In this document: in pieces, positions 5,785-64,000 of the stretch
How the letters are laid out: the number at the start of each line of letters is the position of its first letter
Position numbering within the stretch: position 1 is the stretch's first letter
Assembly: GCA_964017185.1 (NCBI GenBank)
Contig: OZ024876.1
Span: forward strand, 12,091,726-12,155,725
Length of the DNA stretch: 64,000 nt
DNA from: Rugalucina vietnamica
Taxonomy: Eukaryota; Mollusca; Bivalvia; Lucinida; Lucinidae
Direction: 5' to 3'
Made by a program: the position numbers and the translations under genes
The notes under the pieces: generated by a model
Seen by the model: only the letters and a program-made list of their open reading frames with translations
Told to the model about the DNA's origin: nothing
Database searches by the model: none

Positions 5785-7471
5785 CTGAATCTGAATCTGA
5801 ATAGTTTACTGGTGACACGCCAAATGACATTATTTCACCAGGGGGTTCGGATGGGGGGGAAATTAGTCCCTTGAACGCACGAGTGAAGCGAACTTGGACA
5901 CACAGTCATCAGACATTTCAGCAGAGGAGACAAGTGAATCAGGGAGGTCATTCCAGTCCCTGATAGTCTGTGGAAAGAAACTACTTTTGTACGCTTCTTT
6001 GCTAGCTGAAGGTATCTGAAAAGCCAAAGAGTGTTGATTTCTACAACGCCTATTCTTTGGGATAAGGTCATCTGTGGGTATTCTGGCTTTACCCTTTAGA
6101 CCTTTGTATAGCAATATAAGTCTACTATCCTTCCTCCTTTTCTTAAGAGATTCCCATTTCAGTTGACCTAAAATGCCAGTCATGCTCCCAGTTTCAAAAA
6201 CATAATTTCCCGTCACAAACCTTGCCGCACGATTTTGGACCTTTTCCAGTTCTTCCTGGAGGCCATGAGTGTGAGGGTCCCAAACTGAGCTTCCATATTC
6301 CAAGACCGGCCGCACCAGTCCTTTATAAGCTGCTTCTTTCACATCTGGGGGACAAGAATACAAATTTCTCCTCAAGAATCCGAGAGTTCTGTTAGCCTTT
6401 GTACAAACATTGGAAATATGAGTATTCCATTTCAAATCATTTGTGATAGTTACACCCAGGTATTTTATGCTTTCAACGTTTTCCAGTAAAGTGCCCTCAA
6501 GGGTGTAGTCAGCCTGTATCTTACTAGACCGTTTATTTGTCAGCTGCATCATGTTGCATTTGACGGGTTGAAATCTCATTCCCCATTTTCTAGCCCAACT
6601 GCCTAGGCGATCAATGTCTCTTTGAAGTTTCAATGTATCCTCTTCATTCTTGATTTCACGATAGCAAACACAATCATCAGCAAAGAGTCTTATTTCAGAC
6701 TCGATGTCTGCTGAGATGTCATTTATATACAAGGAAAACAGCAAGGGGCCGAGAACGGTGCCCTGAGGGACACCCGACACAACTGGAGCCCAATCCGATT
6801 TAATACCATTAACCACAACCCTTTGTTGTCTGAAACAAAGGAAAGCATTTATCCAATTCAGTGTTGTTCCACCTATTCCATAGCTGAACAATTTGCTTTT
6901 AAGGAGTTCATGGGGAGGAGTATCGAAAGCCTTTTCAAAATCGAGTATAAAAGTGTCGACCTGGCCTTTTTTGTCTAAGATTTTGGCCCAGTCATTTATC
7001 ACTGTAGTCAACTGAGTTTCACAGCTATGCCATTTCCTAAATGCGTGTTGCCTGTCCGACAGGAGTTCATGTTCATCAAGATGGGCCATAATATTTGAGC
7101 ATACAATATGTTCAAGAAGCTTACAAGGAATGCATGTCAAAGAAACAGGGCGGTAATTGCGGGCAAGTGACCTGTCGCCCTTCTTAAACAGGGGGCAAAT
7201 ATTAGCAAGAGACCATTCTTTAGGAATTTCACCTGTATCAATTGACTGCTGGTAGAGATGGGCGAATACCGGCCCTAATTCCATAGCCAGTTCCTTTAGG
7301 ACTCTGGGATGAAGCTCATCAGGCCCTAAGGCTTTAGACGGGTTTAGACCTTTGAGAAGTTTGGTCACCCCTTCCTTTGTGACCACGATATCACGAAAGT
7401 AGACAAAAATGTCGAAGCAGGGCGACATTAGCTTTTGATGATTTTTGTCTCTTTTGAAATCCAGATTTTAA
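5785..7471 (-). mobile_element. 5'-truncated non-LTR retrotransposon (CR1/L2/jockey-like)
   Basis: The element reads leftward. It keeps the reverse transcriptase and C-terminal region but lacks the endonuclease half, so it is 5' truncated near 7430-7471, where it abuts the Penelope-like element. Its 3' end after the stop codon carries a short repeat (GATTCA)n on the minus strand (5785-5803), as in the CR1/L2 group, which end in short microsatellites rather than long poly(A). The exact clade would need a phylogeny. Confidence 0.8.
5863..7428 (-). CDS. Non-LTR retrotransposon reverse transcriptase, N-terminally truncated
   Basis: This 521-residue frame is the largest in the window. It copies element RNA into DNA at the target site. 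Visible reverse transcriptase blocks, in order: the LNPSKALGPDELHPRVLKEL entry segment (about residue 28), the fingers motif NYRPVSLT (about 90), DFEKAFDTPPH carrying the first catalytic aspartate (about 162), GVPQGTVLGPLLF (about 218), the FADD active site (about 249) and the thumb YLGVTI segment. The C-terminal half has the GYGSSVWDPHT-like region seen as YGSSVWDPHT and the IRDWNDLP box typical of CR1/jockey-type proteins. No endonuclease domain precedes it, and the first 10 or so residues look like read-through of flanking sequence. The frame is uninterrupted, so insertion was fairly recent, but this copy cannot move by itself. It is not a host gene. Confidence 0.9.
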   Translation of the reverse strand: MSPCFDIFVYFRDIVVTKEGVTKLLKGLNPSKALGPDELHPRVLKELAMELGPVFAHLYQQSIDTGEIPKEWSLANICPLFKKGDRSLARNYRPVSLTCIPCKLLEHIVCSNIMAHLDEHELLSDRQHAFRKWHSCETQLTTVINDWAKILDKKGQVDTFILDFEKAFDTPPHELLKSKLFSYGIGGTTLNWINAFLCFRQQRVVVNGIKSDWAPVVSGVPQGTVLGPLLFSLYINDISADIESEIRLFADDCVCYREIKNEEDTLKLQRDIDRLGSWARKWGMRFQPVKCNMMQLTNKRSSKIQADYTLEGTLLENVESIKYLGVTITNDLKWNTHISNVCTKANRTLGFLRRNLYSCPPDVKEAAYKGLVRPVLEYGSSVWDPHTHGLQEELEKVQNRAARFVTGNYVFETGSMTGILGQLKWESLKKRRKDSRLILLYKGLKGKARIPTDDLIPKNRRCRNQHSLAFQIPSASKEAYKSSFFPQTIRDWNDLPDSLVSSAEMSDDCVSKFASLVRSRD

Positions 7472-11902: not shown

Positions 11903-14900
11903 CTAAAGTAGGAACCAATAAATGAGCAGCAACATAAGAAAACGGGCCTTTTACATATACGAAAAAAAAGACGCTGCACAGTTGATCAGCGTCTTTGTTT
12001 TCGCTACACAGACAATAAAGTAACAGTCTTTCTACTTTCTTAAATCCGAAATTTCAAACGCCTTGCCTTCTCCTGTGGCTGTACAGCATGTTTTATATCG
12101 GACCTCATTGGTCAGAAACCCAGACTGATGGTTTATTCCACATCGAATCTGTAAATGCGTTCTTCAAGTTGAGGAGGTTAGGGATTTTATGATCACTCAT
12201 GGTGGACACGGGTAAAACAGGGACACCTATCATGGAGGTGTGCCTTTAGGGAGTTAACTATGAGTACGTTCCAAAACACTCGTACATGCGAGATGCGAGT
12301 ACATGGGGATACATTCATGCCTTAAAACCACTACTCACCAGAACCTGAGTCAGTATCAGCCAAAGACAAAGTTTTATGACATGACCTGTTTAAAATGCAA
12401 CCAATGAACGGCTTTCTTTTGTACGCCTTACAAAACGGGTACAATCCCTCTACTCTCTAAATTAGAAATCCAAAGCCTCTAGCCATCATCTGTTTCTATA
12501 CAGGCCACTTTGTGTCAGACTGTGCGAAAGCTCTAGATAAAGACAGATTTCATCACGACACAGCTCTTATTATTTTTTTCTTAAATAAATATTGTAGATA
12601 TTGCTTTATGTTAAACATCACTGTGGCATAACTCGCTAATAAGGATTTCAACATTTCGTGAATTTCGGTCACAACAATTTCACGAAGGACACAACTTATT
12701 CGCGAATTGCAGGTGGAAACATGGAGGTGACTCTCTTTTTACGCCTTTATCTGTGCTTTAAAGGTATATTATTGTTTAAATCAACTATTTTTCTGTGGCA
12801 CATACTCATTGGGTTATGGTTTTAAAGCAATAACATTCTGCAGTCGCATTTGCTGTTTTCTTTTTACCTTTTTATGCAAAAAATTGTGTAATTCATGCTC
12901 TGTTGGGGTTAAACATGAATATCTTTGACATTTCTATAATGATTTTGCACTAAAAATGAACAAAAATCAATTGCAAAGACACCTGTCAAAAACTGTCTTA
13001 AAATAATACTCATTAGTCATGAAATAAAGAAGAAAAGATGACTACCCTTAGTTGATGCGGCTACAACTATTTCTTGATAAGGCTATAACTGTTTCATGAG
13101 TCTGTTACAACTGTTTCTTGATCTTAATGACTGTTGGACACAAACGTTTCATGATCATTGATTTGCAAAAGCTCTGATTTAAGTCATGATGTGCCTTTCG
13201 CATTTAGTTTCAATAGTATTGACATGATCAAATACCTAAATGCAAGAAATTATCTTAATATCGATTTAGGATCTCAGTTTTGATTTTTATTTGCTATTGC
13301 TGCAGCTGGTGTTGTGCCGTGTGGCGGCCCTAAAAAGTCTCCCCGTACATCATCCATAGTGCACGTTATATTTTCCTTTTGATCCTTTGAGATCAGCGGG
13401 GATATTCTGAGAAATCAGAAAGGGCCTGTTACAGGGTATGGGAAATTAACATGGGAGTTTGCCCACGCATGGAATTTTATGAAATTATGTGCATTAATTG
13501 TTTTGGTAATGACTGCTATAATAATGGTGTATTCCCTTGCAAATTCAATTCCAATGGCAAGTTATGACGTAATATATGACGTCACTACGATAGCTAAGGG
13601 CACCCCACTTTAAACGTTTCTTTAGTGACCAACGATTCGTAAAGCAAATGTTGGAAGCTTTCCATAAATAAAGTAGTCATTGGTAAGTTTGCTGATACTA
13701 TAAATGACTTTGTTGGTATCAAGATAGTGGCGGAGCAGTCAATTTCATGTACATGTAACCCCAATTTTCACCTGCTTATTTTTAAAGAGGTATAATTTGA
13801 TTTAAAATTTTTCTGTGTTCCAGTCTTTGTCAAGACACCATTTTATTATAAAAACTGTCCACATATGTTAGGAAAATATTTGTGAAATTTCACGAAATTC
13901 GTGGACCGGTAACATGGTGCTTTGTTACATTCATTAAACATGACCCTTATTCATCAAAATGTTAACTTTTCACAAATAATTACAAAGTACTTTCATAAAT
14001 GATTTATGACTGTAAGAGTTTTACTGTAGGCTTATTATAAGCAATTCATATTATTATAGCATGCTTTTCGTGAAACCCAACACACATACCTTATACCCTG
14101 TTACATAAGTTACCGTTTGGATAAACTTAAAACAATTTAAAGATTTCAATAAAGTTTTGTGTTTAAACATCACATTAGTATTACTGCAGGGTTTAAAATG
14201 CAATATTATTGATCTTCCTGAATTCAGAAATTGTCTGTCAGTACTCTTGCAATTTGTTACATATGTTACATTTAACGCAAACATGTACTGTGAACAATTT
14301 TCATATGATACGACCTTTAAGAGCTGAACTTTTTCTTCTTATTTTAAAAGGATGTGATATGTAACTAGTTAATACACATGCTAAATCATGGGGCTGTTCA
14401 ATTGCATTCAACTTATCTTTATTTAATCAGCATTTTACAAAAATTACATTTCATTGAACATCACAATACATATACCGCGATATTAATCTCAAGAAAAGAT
14501 TATAAGCTCATAACCCAATCTGTTTTTCTGCCATTTATTCACCATTCAATGCTTTATTTTGGTGCAACATCTATCTTAGTTCTTTTGCAGGCTTGTGAAA
14601 CCGATAAGAACACATAATATGCAGGATTAATGTTTGTACAAGACGTTTGTCATGATACGACAGAACTACTTTATTAAATCTATTTTTTACTAAGAAAATA
14701 TTAACTTTAATATTCAGTTTTGAATGATGTAATGTATGTAACGTACAATATATGTTTAATAGGCTGAATAAGATCCATAGGAATGTGAATATAGGAAGTG
14801 GACTTGCTTTAACGATAAAACATGCTTCATAATCAGCCTACATTTTATAGGAGATTTTGGTTTGATGTTTATTTTGCAAGCATTTATGTGGGTAACATAT

Positions 14901-16814
14901 GTAATGCAGTGATGTTGCATTTGACTGAAGGCTTTAAATGCTTAAAATACTTATGACATATGACTTTTCATAATTTATGTCTGTTAATATCAAAATCAGA
15001 TTGTATGTTGAAAATCAAAGTTGTAAAATTTGGGTACAGTAAGTGATATAGGAGGTACTCTAGCGTTCCCTCTAAATAACAACAACATGGAATTGGAATG
15101 TTAAAGCAATATACACTGAACATTTGTCTATATTTCCACTTGTGTCTTTTACAATAAAATATTTATTGGTCCAGGAGTAAGAAATAATAATATCGGATTC
15201 AGTTTATCACTACGAGACAATTCCACATGGACCTCCCTGTCTCACTCCTATATGAAAAGCATAAGGTATGATTATCAATTAAACAAAGTTAAACACCCTC
15301 TATTATTTCATCATAAGAATAATTCAGAGCTTTAAGCATTGATTCAACTGAAGGCAAACTGTAAGCCATTTGGTCTCACTGCCATTTTAAAATTACTTTA
15401 TATCACTCTAAACCTATAGAAGTGTCAAGTGTGAAAACAGATGGTAGAAAAAGAAAACCATCATGAATAACATCTTTTTGGCAAAAGTAAGCAATGGCCA
15501 GGAGCTGCTGCAATTAGAACCAAGGTTCAACCTAATATCCCATGTGGAAAACCAGCGAAATAACAAATAGTTACTTGTACAAAGAGAATGTACTGTTTGC
15601 CAAAAGAATGGCTATTTCCCAACAGGTGGCCACTTAGTTAAATAAATGTAACTACATGTATGGCATTCAGGATTGTCTTATCACAATGTGTGTCAGAAAT
15701 GTGCATTATGGTCATAATCCAAAACCTTTTTGCGATGTTTTGGAGCAATTTCAACATTTTGTTAAAATTATGAAAAGTGACCTACATGTATACAATGTAA
15801 AAAATGACAATGTTACCGGCTTTGAATTATCATGAAATTTTGCTCATATCAAGAGGATATATATGGCATGTTTTTATGCAAATATGGTATCTTGACAAAG
15901 ACTGGAACATATTTATCTTTTAAGTTGAATTTGGTATTTTTTGTAAATTTTCGAGAAAAAATGAGAAATTTTATATATTATTTAATCAGGAAATCAATAT
16001 AATACTTCTGTAAAATGATTTTACGGTATAAGTATAATGCCTGGGATGTTCTCGAGCCAACCCACTTGACAAATCTTAGAAAATTATAAAACTTAAGTTT
16101 TAGGACACACAAAGATGAGGGCAGGTATCACGTCATTGTGGGAGTGAGCCAAGGTTGCCTCCTGAGTCCTATAATTAATTATTTAATTCAATATATACAT
16201 TTTCATAGCTCATATATGATGACCTACTTATGTGTAAAATTTAAAGAAAATCCATGCGTGGGCACATTTGTAACACCCCCTTTATTATCGGTTAAGATTC
16301 ATTTTCTTACCAATGTTTGATATAATTGGTCCCATTTAGATAATACTAGTCTTTGTAACGACTTCCATGTTGAAAGTTGTTAAATTTCAATAGTTCTCTT
16401 GGGCTCCAAGTTGCCAAATCTAAAGGGTCACTGACGAGACTTTAATAGTCGAAACCGCGGTATGGCCCATCCCCTTTCTCATTAATGTGTTCGCTGCTCT
16501 TAAAGGATCTCAGTTTTGATTTTTATTTACTACACTATTTCAAACCATCATTTGGCCTATAAAATTGTCTTTGGGGTTGTAGACCAGGCAAGACTGGCAT
16601 TGCTGCTCAGGTTTCTTAACTCCTTATATTTCAGTAAATGTCAATGTCATATCCAATATGTTATGCTGTCTAAGTAACCAAAATTTAGAATGACAGTCAT
16701 TGTGATATTCCTGGTTTTCAGAAAATGGAGGATTTTAGATGCCACTACCGCCAATAATAATTAAGTATCGGTTTTCACAAAAAAGGTTTGCAAAATATAC
16801 AGAAATAATGCTCT

Positions 16815-16880
<66 letters not shown>

Positions 16881-19800
16881 CTTTTCTTTTAGGCTCACCT
16901 GAGCCGTTAGGCTCACAAGGTGAGCTTATAGTAAACCCATGCTCTGTCGTCCGTCGTCGTCGTTCACAATGTTTAAACATCTCCTCTGAAACCCCTGGGC
17001 CAATCAAAGCCAAACTTTATATGGAGCATCCTTAGGAAGGGAAAACCAAAGTTTATATAAATGGTCCAGGCCACATGACCAAGATAGCCGCCATGGCTAT
17101 AAACAGCAAAAACTTTAAAATCTTCTTCTCCAGAACCAGAAGGCCTATGGCTTTGAAACTTGGCATGAATCATCAGGCAATAGAGCTTTACAAAGTGTGT
17201 ATAAATCATGAACCTGGGATGACCTTGACCTATTTTACGGCAAGGCCAACATCAAAGATCTTCTTCTCTAAAACCACTTGGCCAATCAAAGTTGATTTTT
17301 ATAGAAATTATCTGTATGAAGGGGGAACCAATGTGATTACAAATATACCAGGTAACATGACCAAGATGGTCACCATGCCCATATATGGTAAAAACCCTTC
17401 AAAAATCTTCTACACAGGAACTGCTTAACCTATTGCAACGGAAATTGATATGTGAAAATTAAGACTAGAGTACTACAATGTGTGTATAAATCATGATCCT
17501 GTGATGACCTTGACAGATTTATGGCAAGGTCATCATAGTTCACTGTTAAAATGACACTGAATGAAAAAAAACTTCTAGGAAATGGTAAGTGGACGGAATA
17601 TTTATGAATTTGAAAAAGAAATTAACACCAAGGGGTATTCTGACTCTGTCCTGGGGCTTTAGACCTTTATAGTCAAACAAGTTTATTGGTATATATCTCA
17701 GATCTCAGGTGCGAGTTGACAGGACGATTGGTCTTCTGTGTTTTTAGCTCACCTGGGTCGAAGGCTCAAAAGGTGAGCCATGCTCCGTCGCCTGTCGTTG
17801 TCGTTGTCGTCGTTCACACTTTTCAAAGATCTTCTCCTCTGAAACCCCTGGGCCAATCAATGCAAAACTTCATGTGAAGCATCCTTAGGAAGGAGGAACT
17901 AAAGTTTATATAAATCGTCCAGGTCACATGACCAATATGGCCGCCATGCCCATATATGGTAAAAACCTTAAAAAATATTCTTCTCTTGAACCGGTGGACC
18001 CATTTCAATAAAACTTGGTATGTAGCATTGAGGACTCTGGCCCACCATAATTTATATGAACCATGACCTTAGGTTGACCTTGATCTATTTTAAGGCAAGA
18101 TCAACTTTGGTCACATAGGCTTTTCAATGGACAAAAGTGAAAACATTGAATTTTTCAGGAAGTTTTTTGGCCTGTGACCTGAAAGCTGGTAGATACATAA
18201 AATTATAACTTATTGACTTATTGATTAAATGAAGTCTTAGGAGTATTCAATGTCAAGGTCATCTCTTGACCTTGGCCAAAGGTCATTTACATAATAAATT
18301 TAAAACTTAATTTTCTCAGGAAACGCTTGACCGATTAAAGCCAAATTTTATATGTGGTACCCTTAAGAAGAGGGAATCAAAGTATATATAAATGGTTTAG
18401 GTCACATGGCCAAGCTGGCTGCCATGCTCATATATGTTAAAAACCTTAAAAAATCATTTTCTCTAGAACTGATGAACCGATTTCAATAAAACTTGGTATG
18501 TAGCATCGGGGACTCTGGCTTATCATAGTTTGTATATATCATGACCTTGGGTTGACCTTGACCTATTTTATGGCAAAGTCAACATTGGTCAAATAGGCTT
18601 CTCAATGGAAAACATTGGAGTTTTAAGAACGTTTTGTGGCATTTGACCTGAAAGTTGGTACATATATACAACTTATTGAGTTAATGAAGAGTATTCAAGG
18701 TCAATGTCATCTCTTGACATTGGCCAAAGGTCATTTACATATTATATTTAAAACTCAGTTTTCTCAGAAACCACTGCACCAATCAAGGCCAAATTTTATA
18801 TGTGCTATCCTTAGGAAGGGGAACCAAAGTTTGTAAAAATAATCCAGGTCACATGACCAAGATGGCCGCCATGCCCATATATGTGGTAAAATCCTTTAAA
18901 AATAAATTTCTCTGGAATAGGTAGACCGATTTCAATGAAACTTGGTATGTAGCATTGGGAGCTCTGGCCCTTTATAGTTTATATAAATCATGACCTTCGG
19001 TTGACATTGACCTATTAAACAGTTAATTTAAACAGAAAGGTCAAATATTGCCAGAAAGATCTGAAAGTTGGTAGATACAGGCTGTTTATAGTGTTAATAA
19101 TTATGTGGGCATTTGAGGTCAAGTTTATATTTTATGTTGGCCAACATGGCCTTAGCCAAAGGTCAGTCATCAAAGACAAAATCTCAGGTGAGCGATATCA
19201 GGACAATTGGTCCTCTGTTTTTTTTTTTCTTTCTTTTTTGTTTGTTTGTTTATTTGCTTATAAAGGATATAAACCCCTTTCGCATAAGGCGATCACATAC
19301 GTAGCGTTCTAGGAAAATTGGAACGCCGAGGTGCGCGCCGTGGAAATATCTTTGTCGGTGCGCTGACAAGAACACGGTGGGCTGATTAGACCTAGCCGTG
19401 AGATCACGGTAGCAGCGCCCTGTGATCAATATAATATTTATTACAGGCTGCTCAGCTCTTGTATGGCCCCTTAAAACGAAAAAAAAAAAAAAAAAAAAAA
19501 TGGTTCGGCGAACATAAAAGAAAGTTGCTCTGCAAACACTGTGAGCTATGCGGTTGTATGGAGATTGTACAGCGCAATGTTAAGGTCGCACAAGAACAGT
19601 GATCTGCACTGCGCGCACCGTGAGCACAAAAAAGTTAGGTTGATTTATTCTTTTATTTCCTCCTTTGAAAATTCACTCCTCTTAAAGAGTTTGGATCTTA
19701 TTAACAATAGAGGAAAACGATATTGCGGTGATTCTTAAGTCAAAACAAGGTTATGTCGTGTTCTATGTGAGGTTTTTAATTATAAATCTTCTGTGCTTAT

Positions 19801-20915
19801 CACGATCATGGCTTGTACTATGCCTGTATTGGTTCAAGCTGTACGCACTGTCTATTTCCAGTGCTTTATGTGTACCAATGTTGAAACTTGTATGCTAAAT
19901 ACTGTGTATTGCTCAAGAAACAGTTGTGACTGGCTCAAGAAACAGTTATGACTGACTCAAGAAATGTTTGTAGCTTTCTCATGGCTCACTCCTGAAATAG
20001 TTGTGTCCACTAGCTGACTTGGTACATGGGATTCTAGGTGTATTACAGACTCTATTGTTACAGAAGTTTCAATCTATTTATACCAAGAAGTTCTTAAGGT
20101 ATCCTTTTATACATATAGCATGCCCAAATTCTGGTGCAAAAAGACACTTTTACTGGATTGGCAATTAAACTAGGAAAACACCTAATTTTGTTAGAAAAAA
20201 GAGAATGAGTATCTTTAATTAGCTTCCCCAAACATAAAAAGTACATAGTCATTCACCCATATGTCTCGCCAAGGCATATGAAACTATTACAGTTTAATTT
20301 TCACCTTAATCACCTCAAAGCGTGGCTTCAAACATAGCAGGTACATCTTCATCCAGGTAATTCGCGAATAAGTTGTGTCCTTCGTGAAATTGTTGTGTCC
20401 AAAATTCACGAAATGTTGAAATCCTTATTAGCGAGTTATGCCACAGTGAACATGCTTATATTCATTATGAACTTACCGAGTCTTTTGGGTAGTAGCGGAC
20501 AGAGTCGAAACTGTTTTTCCTTGTCTCCGAGAACAGCACTGGAATTGCGGTGTGTTTTATGTAGATATCTAGAATTATTCTTCACTTTTCCATCTAGCTT
20601 CGTCTGCTTACGTTCTGATCCTGACCCTTTCTTCCAACCAGGATTTTTATCTACATTTTCATTTAAAGTGCCTTTCCCGTTAAACTTCCCTTTTTGAATT
20701 TTATGGACGCCATTTACGTGAGGTTTGGTGGCCTCATCTTGTTTTATATCTGATTTTACTGTCTCTAGTTTTCGTGAAACCACCTCTTCCGGAAGACGAT
20801 TGATCGACAGTCGAAATGACTGGTCGATTATCGATATGTACACTAGCGGCACGAAAGTTGCAATGAAGGCAACTAAATACAGCTTTGGGGTGATTTTGAG
20901 ACAAGGTTTCGACAT
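11739..20915 (-). CDS. Beta-1,4-galactosyltransferase-type protein, N-terminal two coding exons (partial)
   Basis: Type II Golgi membrane enzyme of the B4GALT family, which adds galactose from UDP-galactose to GlcNAc- or glucose-ended glycans in the Golgi lumen. Exons 20915-20477 and 11902-11739 join in phase 1 (CTCG|gtaagt to ctactttag|TTGG) and give the first 201 residues. These are: a short cytoplasmic tail, a membrane segment (about 13-31, [19 protein letters not shown]), a Lys/Asn-rich stem, then [10 protein letters not shown] (139-148), GGHYKPHDC (173-181) and the UDP-galactose-side motif IIPYRDR (190-196), all typical of the family. The second exon ends in frame at GAG|gtaggg. The DVDL and WGWGGEDDD catalytic exons are not found in the remaining minus-strand sequence and are expected left of the window. 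The 8.6 kb intron is mostly one inserted element (12619-20448). Which B4GALT paralogue it is cannot be told. Confidence 0.85.
11924..12145 (+). mobile_element. MITE family A, copy 6 (degraded)
   Basis: Starts GAGCAGCAACATAAG and keeps the GTCTTTGTTTTCGC arm and CTGTACAG block, but both ends have drifted. It lies 22 bases upstream (minus sense) of the B4GALT-type exon 2 acceptor. Confidence 0.65.
12420..12567 (+). mobile_element. MITE family A fragment
   Basis: Only the right half is present (GTACAATCCCTCTAC through CAGGCC and TTTGTGTCAGAC). The right end is eroded. The 270 bases between it and copy 6 show nothing recognisable. Confidence 0.55.
13422..16280. mobile_element. Nested insertion of 2.86 kb with short inverted ends
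   Basis: Inserted between ..TCAGAAA and TTTATTATCGG of the 376 bp unit, which is continuous at 63635-63650. Its ends pair imperfectly: GGGCCTGTTACA.. against GGGGGTGTTACA.. on the other strand, then CCCACGCATGGA on both. TGTTACAT motifs recur inside. There is no transposase frame and I see no clear target duplication. The interior is AT-rich and otherwise blank. Confidence 0.6.
16110..16195 (+). pseudogene. Remnant of a LINE reverse transcriptase
   Basis: Translates to [13 protein letters not shown], which matches the conserved GVRQGCLLSPLLF block of several non-LTR reverse transcriptases. Reading decays on both sides, so only this scrap survives. Confidence 0.4.
16820..16890. repeat. Poly-T tract
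   Basis: About 65 bases of T with scattered C and G, immediately before the dispersed AGCTCACCTG repeat, and possibly its terminal homopolymer. Confidence 0.8.
16891..17744 (+). repeat. Dispersed AGCTCACCTG repeat (family C), copy 1
   Basis: Starts AGGCTCACCTGAGCCG..AAGGTGAGC and ends CTCAGGTGCGAGTTGACAGG..CTTCTGTG. Its body has repeated subunits with AAGATGGCCGCCATG-like segments (as AAGATAGCCGCCATG), GTCACATGACC-like segments (as CCACATGACC) and TGACCTTGACC motifs. No coding function is seen. It lies inside the 12619-20448 element. Confidence 0.8.
17745..19218 (+). repeat. Dispersed AGCTCACCTG repeat (family C), copy 2
   Basis: Directly follows copy 1. It starts AGCTCACCTGGGTCGAAGG and ends CTCAGGTGAGCGATATCAGG..GGTCCTCTG. 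It includes about three subunits with AAACTTGGTATGTAGC, TGACCTTGACC and GGTCACATGACC landmarks. Short reading frames across it are incidental. Confidence 0.82.
19219..20358. other. Interior of the 7.8 kb element, right part
   Basis: Holds a T/C tract (19219-19240), an A tract (19480-19500) and a subterminal array of CAAGAAACAGTTGTGAC-type motifs (19905-20010). No gene is recognised. Confidence 0.5.
20477..20915 (-). CDS. B4GALT-type gene, coding exon 1
   Basis: 439 bases from the ATG at 20915-20913 to the donor CTCG|gtaagt (intron from 20476). It encodes the cytoplasmic tail, membrane anchor, stem and the start of the conserved CP..P..L region. This ATG is the only one that precedes the hydrophobic segment. 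A possible 5' UTR acceptor (TATTTAG|AAGGGACAC) ends 9 bases upstream of it in minus sense. Confidence 0.8.
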
Positions 20916-20939
20916 GTGTCCCTTCTAAATACATGTAAT

Positions 20940-63363: not shown

Positions 63364-63376
63364 ATAATTCACTTTA

Positions 63377-63944
63377 AAATTGAGATCCTTTAAGAGCAGC
63401 GAACACATTAATGAGAATGGGGATGGGCCATACCGCGGTTTCGACTATTAAAGTCTCGTCAGTGACCCTTGAGATTTGGCAACATGGAGCCAAAACGAAT
63501 TACTGAAATTTTGCAAGTTTCAACATGGTAGTCGACACAAAGACTAGAAATATCTAAATGGGACCAAATACATTAAACATTGGTAAGAAAATGAATCTTA
63601 ACCGATAATAAATTTCTGGTTTCTCAGAATATCCTCGCTGATCTCAAAGGACCGAAAGAAAAATATAACCTGCACTATGGATGATGTACGGGGAGACTTT
63701 TTAGGGCCGCCACACGGCACAACACCAGCTGCAGTAATAGCAAATAAAAATTAAAATTGAGATCCTTTAAGAGCAGCGAACACATTAATGAGAATGGGGA
63801 TGGGCCATACCGCGGTTTCGACTATTAAAGTCTCGTCAGTGACCCTTGAGATTTGGCAACATGGAGCCAAAACGAATTACTGAAATTTTGCAAGTTTCAA
63901 CATGGTAGTCGACACAAAGACTAGAAATATCTAAATGGGACCAA
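63377..63944. repeat. Tandem 376 bp unit, 1.5 copies
   Basis: The unit starts ATTGAGATCCTTTAAGAGC at 63377 and again at 63753. The first 190 bases of the second are nearly identical to the first, then it diverges at GGGACCAATC. Landmarks are ATACCGCGGTTTCGAC, ATGATGTACGGGGAG and GCCGCCACACGGCAC. Reverse copies sit at 13262-16540. Confidence 0.9.
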
Positions 63945-64000
63945 TCACGGATTTAATAGTGACTTTTATTCACCAGTTTATTGCCTAAGGCGTTTTACAC

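Follow-up and report, generated by a model that had tools for sequence, protein, structure and literature searches.

A mollusc transposon with RAG-like ends is probably a deletion derivative of an element encoding a YqaJ-bearing presumed transposase

Transposon ends that start with CAC, together with 5-bp target-site duplications, serve as marks of RAG/Transib ancestry. Kolobok elements have TTAA duplications and RR..YY ends, and CACTA elements have CACTG ends and subterminal repeats. For CMC elements, a passage of PMC4482050 gives duplications of 2-4 bp, and section 6 of PMC7204232 gives CACTWMCAAACKTYKBB, with AAA at positions 8-10, as the consensus of protostome RAGL terminal inverted repeats (TIRs). 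According to a part of PMC9587614, multimers are known in KolobokP, the sister lineage of KolobokE, and KolobokP is abundant in bivalves.

The element described here spans 7.8 kb (12619-20448) of the window, the whole 64,000-nt stretch of Rugalucina vietnamica DNA that was analysed, and is a real, crippled copy of a TIR DNA transposon. It has the same TIRs as a 15.1 kb coding copy, A15 (C2:71922414-71937561), and probably arose from a large DNA transposon with a YqaJ-bearing presumed transposase, by an internal deletion that left it non-autonomous. Our best reading is that the lineage is apparently undescribed, that its CAC ends and 5-bp duplications have converged on those of RAG, and that an exonuclease lies inside its transposase. 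A comparison that covered the literature, with YqaJ-directed searches included and Repbase outside it, found no description of this lineage. The window element consists of the following parts.

12614-12618, no strand: left target-site duplication AACAT (direct reading)
12619-12708, plus strand: left TIR, 90 bp, starting CACTGTGGCATAACTCGC, with one ACAAC..TTTC..GA motif inside
12619-13268, plus strand: left arm, 84% identical to the gene-start side of A15 (BLAST)
13060-13154, plus strand: left subterminal ACAAC..TTTC..GA motif array
13269-16524, no strand: secondary insertion of 3,256 bp, foreign to the family, with an ATTTA duplication on both sides
16525-16752, plus strand: left arm continued, to the deletion junction
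16725-16757, plus strand: remnant of the presumed transposase gene, ATG and MEDFRCHY, then RQ and a stop; first 24 nt as in the coding copy
16752-16890, plus strand: far side of the internal deletion, 84% match to A15 1405-1266
16891-19335, no strand: internal block of diverged repeat units (BLAST comparison with copies)
19336-20448, minus strand: right arm, 83% match to the far end of A15
19913-20010, minus strand: right subterminal motif array, mirroring the left array
20359-20448, minus strand: right TIR, 90 bp, 88/90 identical to the left TIR
20449-20453, no strand: right target-site duplication AACAT (direct reading)

The inverted arms (12618-12708 and 20359-20449) are 98% complementary; the TIR proper starts with CACTGTGG, and the family ends read CACTGTGG...CCACAGTG. 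Four ACAAC..TTTC..GA motifs lie on the plus strand at one end (element positions 53, 445, 489 and 522) and four on the minus strand at the other (7778, 7386, 7353 and 7309), forming subterminal arrays that are candidate transposase-binding sites. The sequence-only reading had reported the 90-bp inverted ends, the exact AACAT on both sides and the mirrored motifs, all of which were confirmed, and had missed that 13269-16524 is a separate insertion inside the element. This insertion carries a 20-bp terminal direct repeat (GGATCTCAGTTTTGATTTTT). Among the 19 further copies that were compared, 17 read through its site without interruption. End pieces related to it are also present elsewhere in the window. 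Minus the insertion, the window copy measures about 4.6 kb; lengths of 4.1-5.2 kb are found for 10 of the 19 others. The repeat units of the internal block are about 250-450 bp, as interpreted from BLAST overlaps; the block is at least partly present in 18 of the 19 other copies, absent from the copy L029 and without a match at the corresponding place in A15.

We estimate that the 1.09 Gb genome holds 110 copies of this family. The first 18 bp of the TIR, with at most two mismatches, occur 113+122 times versus 6+5 for a reversed-pattern control, and thus the family ends are not a product of chance. The earlier reading had suggested that copies be checked for 5-bp duplications: in a set of 24 that includes the window copy, A15 and L029, with four copies picked for length, 20 have an exact 5-bp duplication and none has a match at 6, 7 or 8 bp, while re-pairing of the flanks gave a chance expectation of 0.086 copies. 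This supports the proposal that the element is a DNA transposon whose TIRs start with CAC and whose target-site duplications are 5 bp long. The duplications vary in sequence, and the ends are CA..TG. Seven of the eight ACAAC..TTTC..GA motifs are found in L029, at the same distances from the ends as in the window copy, and seven in A15, where those of the gene-side array (the TIR motif excepted) lie 39 bp nearer the end. In the assembly, an end-to-end dimer of a family element is located on C14.

The left and right TIRs of A15 are identical at 90/90 positions, and its duplication is AATAT. This copy encodes one protein of ~1,380 aa, read inward from one end with one in-frame stop (TAA), the gene beginning 873 bp inside that end; the only frames longer than 250 aa are two parts of this protein and a 317-aa C2H2 zinc-finger ORF. 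By BLAST, positions 1-650 of the window element correspond to A15 15248-14623, and the window copy retains the first eight codons of the large gene (16725-16748), all 24 nt being identical. As nothing of the gene other than its start is retained, the window copy is a deletion derivative, in support of the earlier view that it is non-autonomous. The first 24 nt of the gene, with at most three mismatches, are found in 15 of the 24 copies, the window copy, A15 and L029 included, and the same deletion junction follows the gene start in 13 of these 15. The gene itself is held by only two of the 24, four of which had been picked for length.

The A15 protein contains a YqaJ (lambda-type) exonuclease domain at aa 460-604 (E 1.3e-9), which exceeds the 22-bit cut-off in four of the five family members scanned, L044 being the exception; the lambda-exonuclease NCBIfam model stays below its cut-off in the three members scanned with it (A15, L047 and L044). 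PF21787 (TNP-like RNase H, N) gave sub-threshold matches at a constant place in four of five whole frames (E 0.0013-0.095) and in all five excised and fused segments (E 0.00016-0.0091). When the upstream half was shuffled as a control, matches were again obtained in 5/5 cases (E 0.00024-0.089), the real segments gaining 4.2, 4.3, 1.3, 0.6 and -0.1 bits over these controls. Since these controls score nearly as high, the upstream half with D268 is unconfirmed as part of the RNase H domain. Both D268 and D803, as well as the YqaJ-domain residues E517, D558, E574 and K576, are invariant in all five members, and the candidate D1169xxH and E1339 motifs are transposase-like, E1339 having been read at letter level in A15 only. 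D803 and D1169 are 366 residues apart in the family protein; for P transposase, a part of PMC8230255 gives a D303-to-D339 spacing of 36. At the N-terminus a C..C..H..H pattern is visible by eye, L045 gives a weak C2H2 match (E 0.22), and no THAP match was obtained in the family frames scanned. No transposase or RNase H family exceeded its curated cut-off in any family protein scanned, and PDB sequence searches returned no convincing relative: one gave a C2H2 protein at E 5.3, another gave nothing and a third gave stathmin chains at E of at least 0.21. On these sub-threshold matches and motifs, the large protein is probably a DDE enzyme.

Related loci are numerous: the YqaJ query gave 78 matches in the genome and the C-terminal query 53, and both parts fall into one open frame in 22 cases of 1,271-1,669 aa (match lists compared by hand). 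A stretch of 4.3 kb is shared by three loci at 99.7% identity, which indicates recent mobility, and in the L047-L049 family the homology of two copies extends at least 0.8-0.9 kb upstream of the loci.

We propose that the ~1,380-aa protein would act as the transposase and bind the ends and the subterminal arrays; its N-terminus, which is zinc-finger-like, may mediate this binding. DNA would be cut and joined by an RNase H-type DDE centre, for which D268, D803 and E1339 with D1169xxH are candidates, and the YqaJ domain would be inserted into this centre. Strand transfer at positions staggered by 5 bp would generate the 5-bp duplications, and deletion copies would be mobilised in trans. More speculatively, the exonuclease may process the ends or extrachromosomal copies into end-to-end concatemers such as the C14 dimer. 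We advance only tentatively the wider idea of a separate animal DNA-transposon superfamily with a single DDE transposase of ~1,300-1,650 aa, a lambda/YqaJ exonuclease within the catalytic domain and convergent RAG-like ends, moving at least partly via precisely joined end-to-end intermediates (circles or concatemers).

The CAC start, the 5-bp duplications and an open RAG1L-RAG2L pair on C9 would also fit a non-autonomous Transib/RAGL element whose ends are recognised and cut by the RAG1L-RAG2L of this genome. This is very improbable, given that the same-ended coding copy encodes another protein, YqaJ-bearing and RNase H-like, whose gene start the window copy retains; a relative with such another transposase-like protein is what the sequence-only reading had itself named as speaking against the Transib/RAG kinship it suggested. 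The RAG1- or Transib-type transposase that it advised looking for inside the longest copies was not found in the six frames of L029 or the frames of A15, which gave no RAG model match, and tblastn of the genome's RAG1L/RAG2L against 20 copies (window and 19 others, A15 left out) reached a best E of 0.054. The RAG1 model (PF12940), whose absence from the family served as the Transib test in place of a separate Transib model, matches the genome at three places, all outside this family, and when the A15 protein family was compared with RAG1L by profile, the probability was 0.2% (E 0.26). The RAG2 Pfam model matched nowhere, controls included, even though the genome has RAG2L frames containing kelch and PHD, so that its negative is uninformative. 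Two true RAG1L-RAG2L transposons (C9 and C11) have ends CACATACAAA and CACTAACAAC, unlike the window TIR; these were missed by an exact-inverted-repeat search and found by a scan for CAC pairs sharing a 5-bp flank, with one qualifying pair among 14,152 (C9) and one among 22,197 (C11), versus 0/35,450 (left of one locus with right of the other) and 1/573,936 (window pieces) in controls. The genome's RAGL ends are close to the consensus in section 6 of PMC7204232, whereas the window TIR has GCA at 8-10 and shows 8 mismatches to it over 17 positions, as many as random 17-mers starting with CAC most often show. When the first 26 bp of the window TIR were compared with 70 kb of sequence surrounding the RAGL loci, no match came closer than 9 mismatches. 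We rejected the RAG/Transib assignment on the coding copy, the gene-start remnant, the TIR consensus and the profile comparison; as the full-length relative encodes a non-RAG enzyme, the likeness to the immune-gene recombination system is superficial.

It is unlikely, though less so, that the YqaJ protein is a captured or viral passenger and that the true transposase (hAT, Kolobok/KolobokE or other) has been lost from all copies seen and acts in trans. No Pfam transposase exceeds its cut-off in L029 (six frames) or the two main frames of A15, and a passage of PMC4482050 gives hAT duplications of 5-8 bp, consistent with such a passenger. Against it stand the protein's own RNase H-like matches at a constant place, its DxxH and E motifs, the position of its gene 873 bp inside one end, the zinc-finger ORF as the sole other A15 frame >250 aa, and its recurrence as dispersed, partly near-identical copies; varied 5-bp duplications and CAC ends are unlike Kolobok and ISL2EU, and two peptide patterns found no viral-contig relative. 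The CACTG start and the subterminal motif arrays recall CACTA/CMC-type elements, an assignment that we find scarcely credible in view of the 5-bp duplications in 20/24 copies; the coding copies scanned showed no CMC-type domain.

With P-element/THAP9, the family may share an RNase H-type catalytic domain, for which the PF21787 matches are sub-threshold and are also given by the half-shuffled controls; a candidate D-D-DxxH-E order and subterminal repeats inside the TIRs are further points in common. It differs in its 5-bp duplications, versus 8 bp in a part of PMC7776569, in its CAC ends, in a C2H2-like finger instead of THAP, in a YqaJ domain between two candidate Asp residues and in protein length, which far exceeds that of the 87 kDa P transposase. 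KolobokE likewise has a transposon-encoded PD-(D/E)xK lambda-type nuclease, as described in a part of PMC9587614, but downstream of the transposase domain, whereas in the family, should D268 and D803 be catalytic, it lies between these two Asp residues; varied 5-bp duplications and CA..TG ends also set the family apart from Kolobok. The 5 bp fall within the hAT range cited above from PMC4482050, and the hAT C-terminal dimerisation domain is absent from the six frames of L029, the two frames of A15 and the other family frames scanned. RAGL/ProtoRAG/Transib elements share the CAC-starting ends and 5-bp duplications, and differ in RAG1L/RAG2L, which the family lacks, and in the mismatched remainder of the TIR. 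In a genome that also has genuine RAGL transposons, the family combines both marks with an apparently unrelated enzyme, and therefore these marks alone are insufficient to assign non-autonomous elements to RAGL. ISL2EU (PHIS superfamily) is also a DNA transposon encoding a YqaJ exonuclease, according to parts of PMC4482050 and PMC9179366, but there the exonuclease has an ORF of its own next to a DDE transposase, and the duplications are 2 bp (AT), in contrast to the single frame (22 loci) and 5 bp of the family. For ISL2EU and related elements, a passage of PMC4482050 calls the role of the additional ORFs unknown; the family suggests that a recombination exonuclease and a transposase-like protein are fused in one polypeptide, and such a fusion offers a system to test the role of accessory exonucleases.

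The window element carries the inverted ends, the AACAT on both sides and the mirrored subterminal motifs described by the sequence-only reading, which took it for a possible decayed or non-autonomous Transib/RAG-like transposon. The same ends bound a coding copy elsewhere in the genome, A15.

Window 12619-20448, window element: 7.8 kb, 90-bp terminal inverted repeats (TIRs; 88/90 alike), flanked by AACAT, mirrored subterminal motif arrays
C2:71922414-71937561, A15: 15.1 kb, TIRs 90/90 alike left to right, duplication AATAT

Compared with other copies, the window element has an additional insertion of 3,256 bp at 13269-16524, itself flanked by a 5-bp duplication, ATTTA, and the insertion site is uninterrupted in 17 of the 19 other copies compared. 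Without it, the element is a ~4.6 kb form comprising a left arm, a block of diverged repeat units and a right arm. The insertion is bounded by 20-bp terminal direct repeats, and its end pieces recur at window 63376-63945 in tail-head-tail order; the underlying repeat may form tandem units. By inspection only, an open frame of 162 aa (20436-20924, minus strand), which adjoins the right end of the element and includes a stretch like a signal anchor, looks like the first exon of a gene for a type II membrane protein, and a 534-aa open frame (5863-7467, minus strand) resembles a non-LTR reverse transcriptase.

The 18-bp tip was found with up to 2 mismatches at 113 + 122 places in the window's own genome, versus 6 + 5 for the reversed pattern as a control, which would amount to a family of ~110 elements if the tips pair. 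We examined 24 copies: the window element, 19 copies from 20 fetched regions, three long ones and A15. The 23 fetched copies were drawn from paired tips within the first 100 entries of the list of 235 places, and the last four of them were chosen by length. An exact 5-bp duplication flanks 20 of the 24 (0.086 expected from re-pairing flanks) and a match at 6-8 bp none. L019 and L024 have 4-bp matches instead of exact 5-bp duplications. The duplication is also missing in each of L032 and L033 (G000:C6:28397078-28418515), where the left flank of the former and the right flank of the latter share ATATC at the outer ends, 21.4 kb apart, and the inner flanks do not match; the two may form one composite unit with host DNA inside.

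The minus strand of A15 holds a frame of 1,015 aa that opens with ATG and, past a single TAA, goes on for another 365 aa in phase; a 317-aa ORF with C2H2 zinc fingers lies on the other strand. A second coding copy, the 9.6 kb L029, shares the ends of A15 and the window family (TIRs 90/90 left to right) and aligns with A15 in three long pieces at 98-99.9%. The start codon of the A15 long protein lies 873 bp inward from one end. This ATG with 24 identical nucleotides is found in the window at 16725-16748, where 10 residues precede a stop, and the sequence that follows stems from the other side of an internal deletion. The gene start, allowing up to 3 mismatches, is present in 15/24 copies, namely A15, L029 and 13 that run into the deletion junction of the window element, and is missing in nine; in one of these, L040, the cause is apparently an indel. 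Judging from the gene-start remnant and the shared deletion junction, the window element arose by deletion from an element of the A15 type.

Genuine RAG1L is present in the same genome (PF12940, E 5.1e-79), and on C9 and C11 it is convergent with kelch/PHD RAG2L frames within RAG1L-RAG2L (RAGL) transposons.

G000:C9:34092192-34104836 (L012-L014), RAGL transposon: CAC ends CACATACAAA.., ATTTT duplication on both sides
G000:C11:21945356-21963254 (L016-L017), second RAGL transposon: ends CACTAACAAC.., duplication CCGTG

The C9 transposon has open RAG2L (501 aa, kelch and PHD) and RAG1L (782 aa, with N-terminal frames upstream), and the C11 RAG1L is split by an inverted, partly duplicated segment with mirror pieces near 21951687-21951933 and 21957725-21957961. 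The four RAGL ends deviate from the protostome RAGL consensus (PMC7204232) at 2 to 4 of 17 positions, whereas the window TIR deviates at 8. The best tblastn match of RAG1L/RAG2L in 20 copies of the window family had an E of 0.054, and profile comparison of the long-protein family with RAG1L gave a probability of 0.2%. These comparisons, the protein encoded by A15 and its gene-start remnant in the window element speak against Transib/RAG kinship, and we dropped this assignment.

The A15 long protein contains a YqaJ (lambda-type exonuclease) domain at aa 460-604 (E 1.3e-9) and a lambda-exonuclease NCBIfam match below the cut-off. Genome searches yielded 78 matches with the YqaJ part and 53 with the C-terminal part; both occur in 22 open frames of 1,271-1,669 aa when the two match lists are compared by hand. 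At three loci, each on a different chromosome, 4.3 kb of sequence is 99.7% identical, and two of them are also alike farther upstream (99.6% over 707 bp), which indicates recent dispersal. YqaJ-protein genes also form divergent inverted pairs a few kb apart at G000:C1:49698454-49708927 and C5:11574517-11591513, with frames of ~1,450-1,520 aa and a stop in the C-terminal match of one of the four. Invariant in a five-member alignment are DGKK (D268), SPDGS (D558), E574, K576 and DGQ (D803). The N-terminal part of TNP-like RNase H, PF21787, stays under the cut-off in every protein (aa 738-811 of A15, E 0.023; 4/5 whole frames, E 0.0013-0.095). Excised and fused segments matched in 5/5 (E 0.00016-0.0091, sub-threshold), but so did half-shuffled controls (5/5, E 0.00024-0.089), and the true upstream half gained 4.2, 4.3, 1.3, 0.6 and -0.1 bits over the shuffled one. 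These values weakly suggest an RNase H domain split by YqaJ.

The window family combines 5-bp-duplication insertion, conserved ends and amplified deletion derivatives alongside coding copies, which are rare, and the long protein would be the transposase, acting in trans. On C14 (L006-L008, G000:C14:8865525-8878041, read at the ends and middle junction only), two family elements abut exactly, CCACAGTG|CACTGTGG, with zero bases between. A single CAATT/CAATT duplication surrounds both, their left 1.6 kb are 99.7% alike, and in the second element an inverted copy of the left 698 bp takes the place of the right TIR. Ordinary insertion beside another element would leave five bases, unlike this junction; a joined circle or concatemer might be the source, possibly handled by the exonuclease. 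The pair is a clue to the transposition pathway from a single locus, where an assembly error is possible. Multimers are known for KolobokP and parallel the C14 pair, but the copy-out circles discussed there (PMC9587614) have a spacer between the ends.

In bivalve genomes, YqaJ domains have been counted as viral or recombinase domains (one passage each in PMC7826175 and PMC10225492), and one survey of bivalve transposons (PMC10294476) does not use the word YqaJ in its main text. In full-text searches of open-licence papers, which do not take in Repbase, we found no description of a YqaJ-protein transposon group. The window family fits none of the systems compared. As described in the passages cited, YqaJ is a separate ORF in ISL2EU, which makes AT duplications (PMC4482050, PMC9179366), and P/THAP9 makes 8-bp duplications (PMC7776569), in contrast to 5 bp in the window family. 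The D1169VTH and S-E1339-NFFG motifs of A15 are like the [C/D]xxH...E part of the P superfamily signature, as given in PMC8230255.
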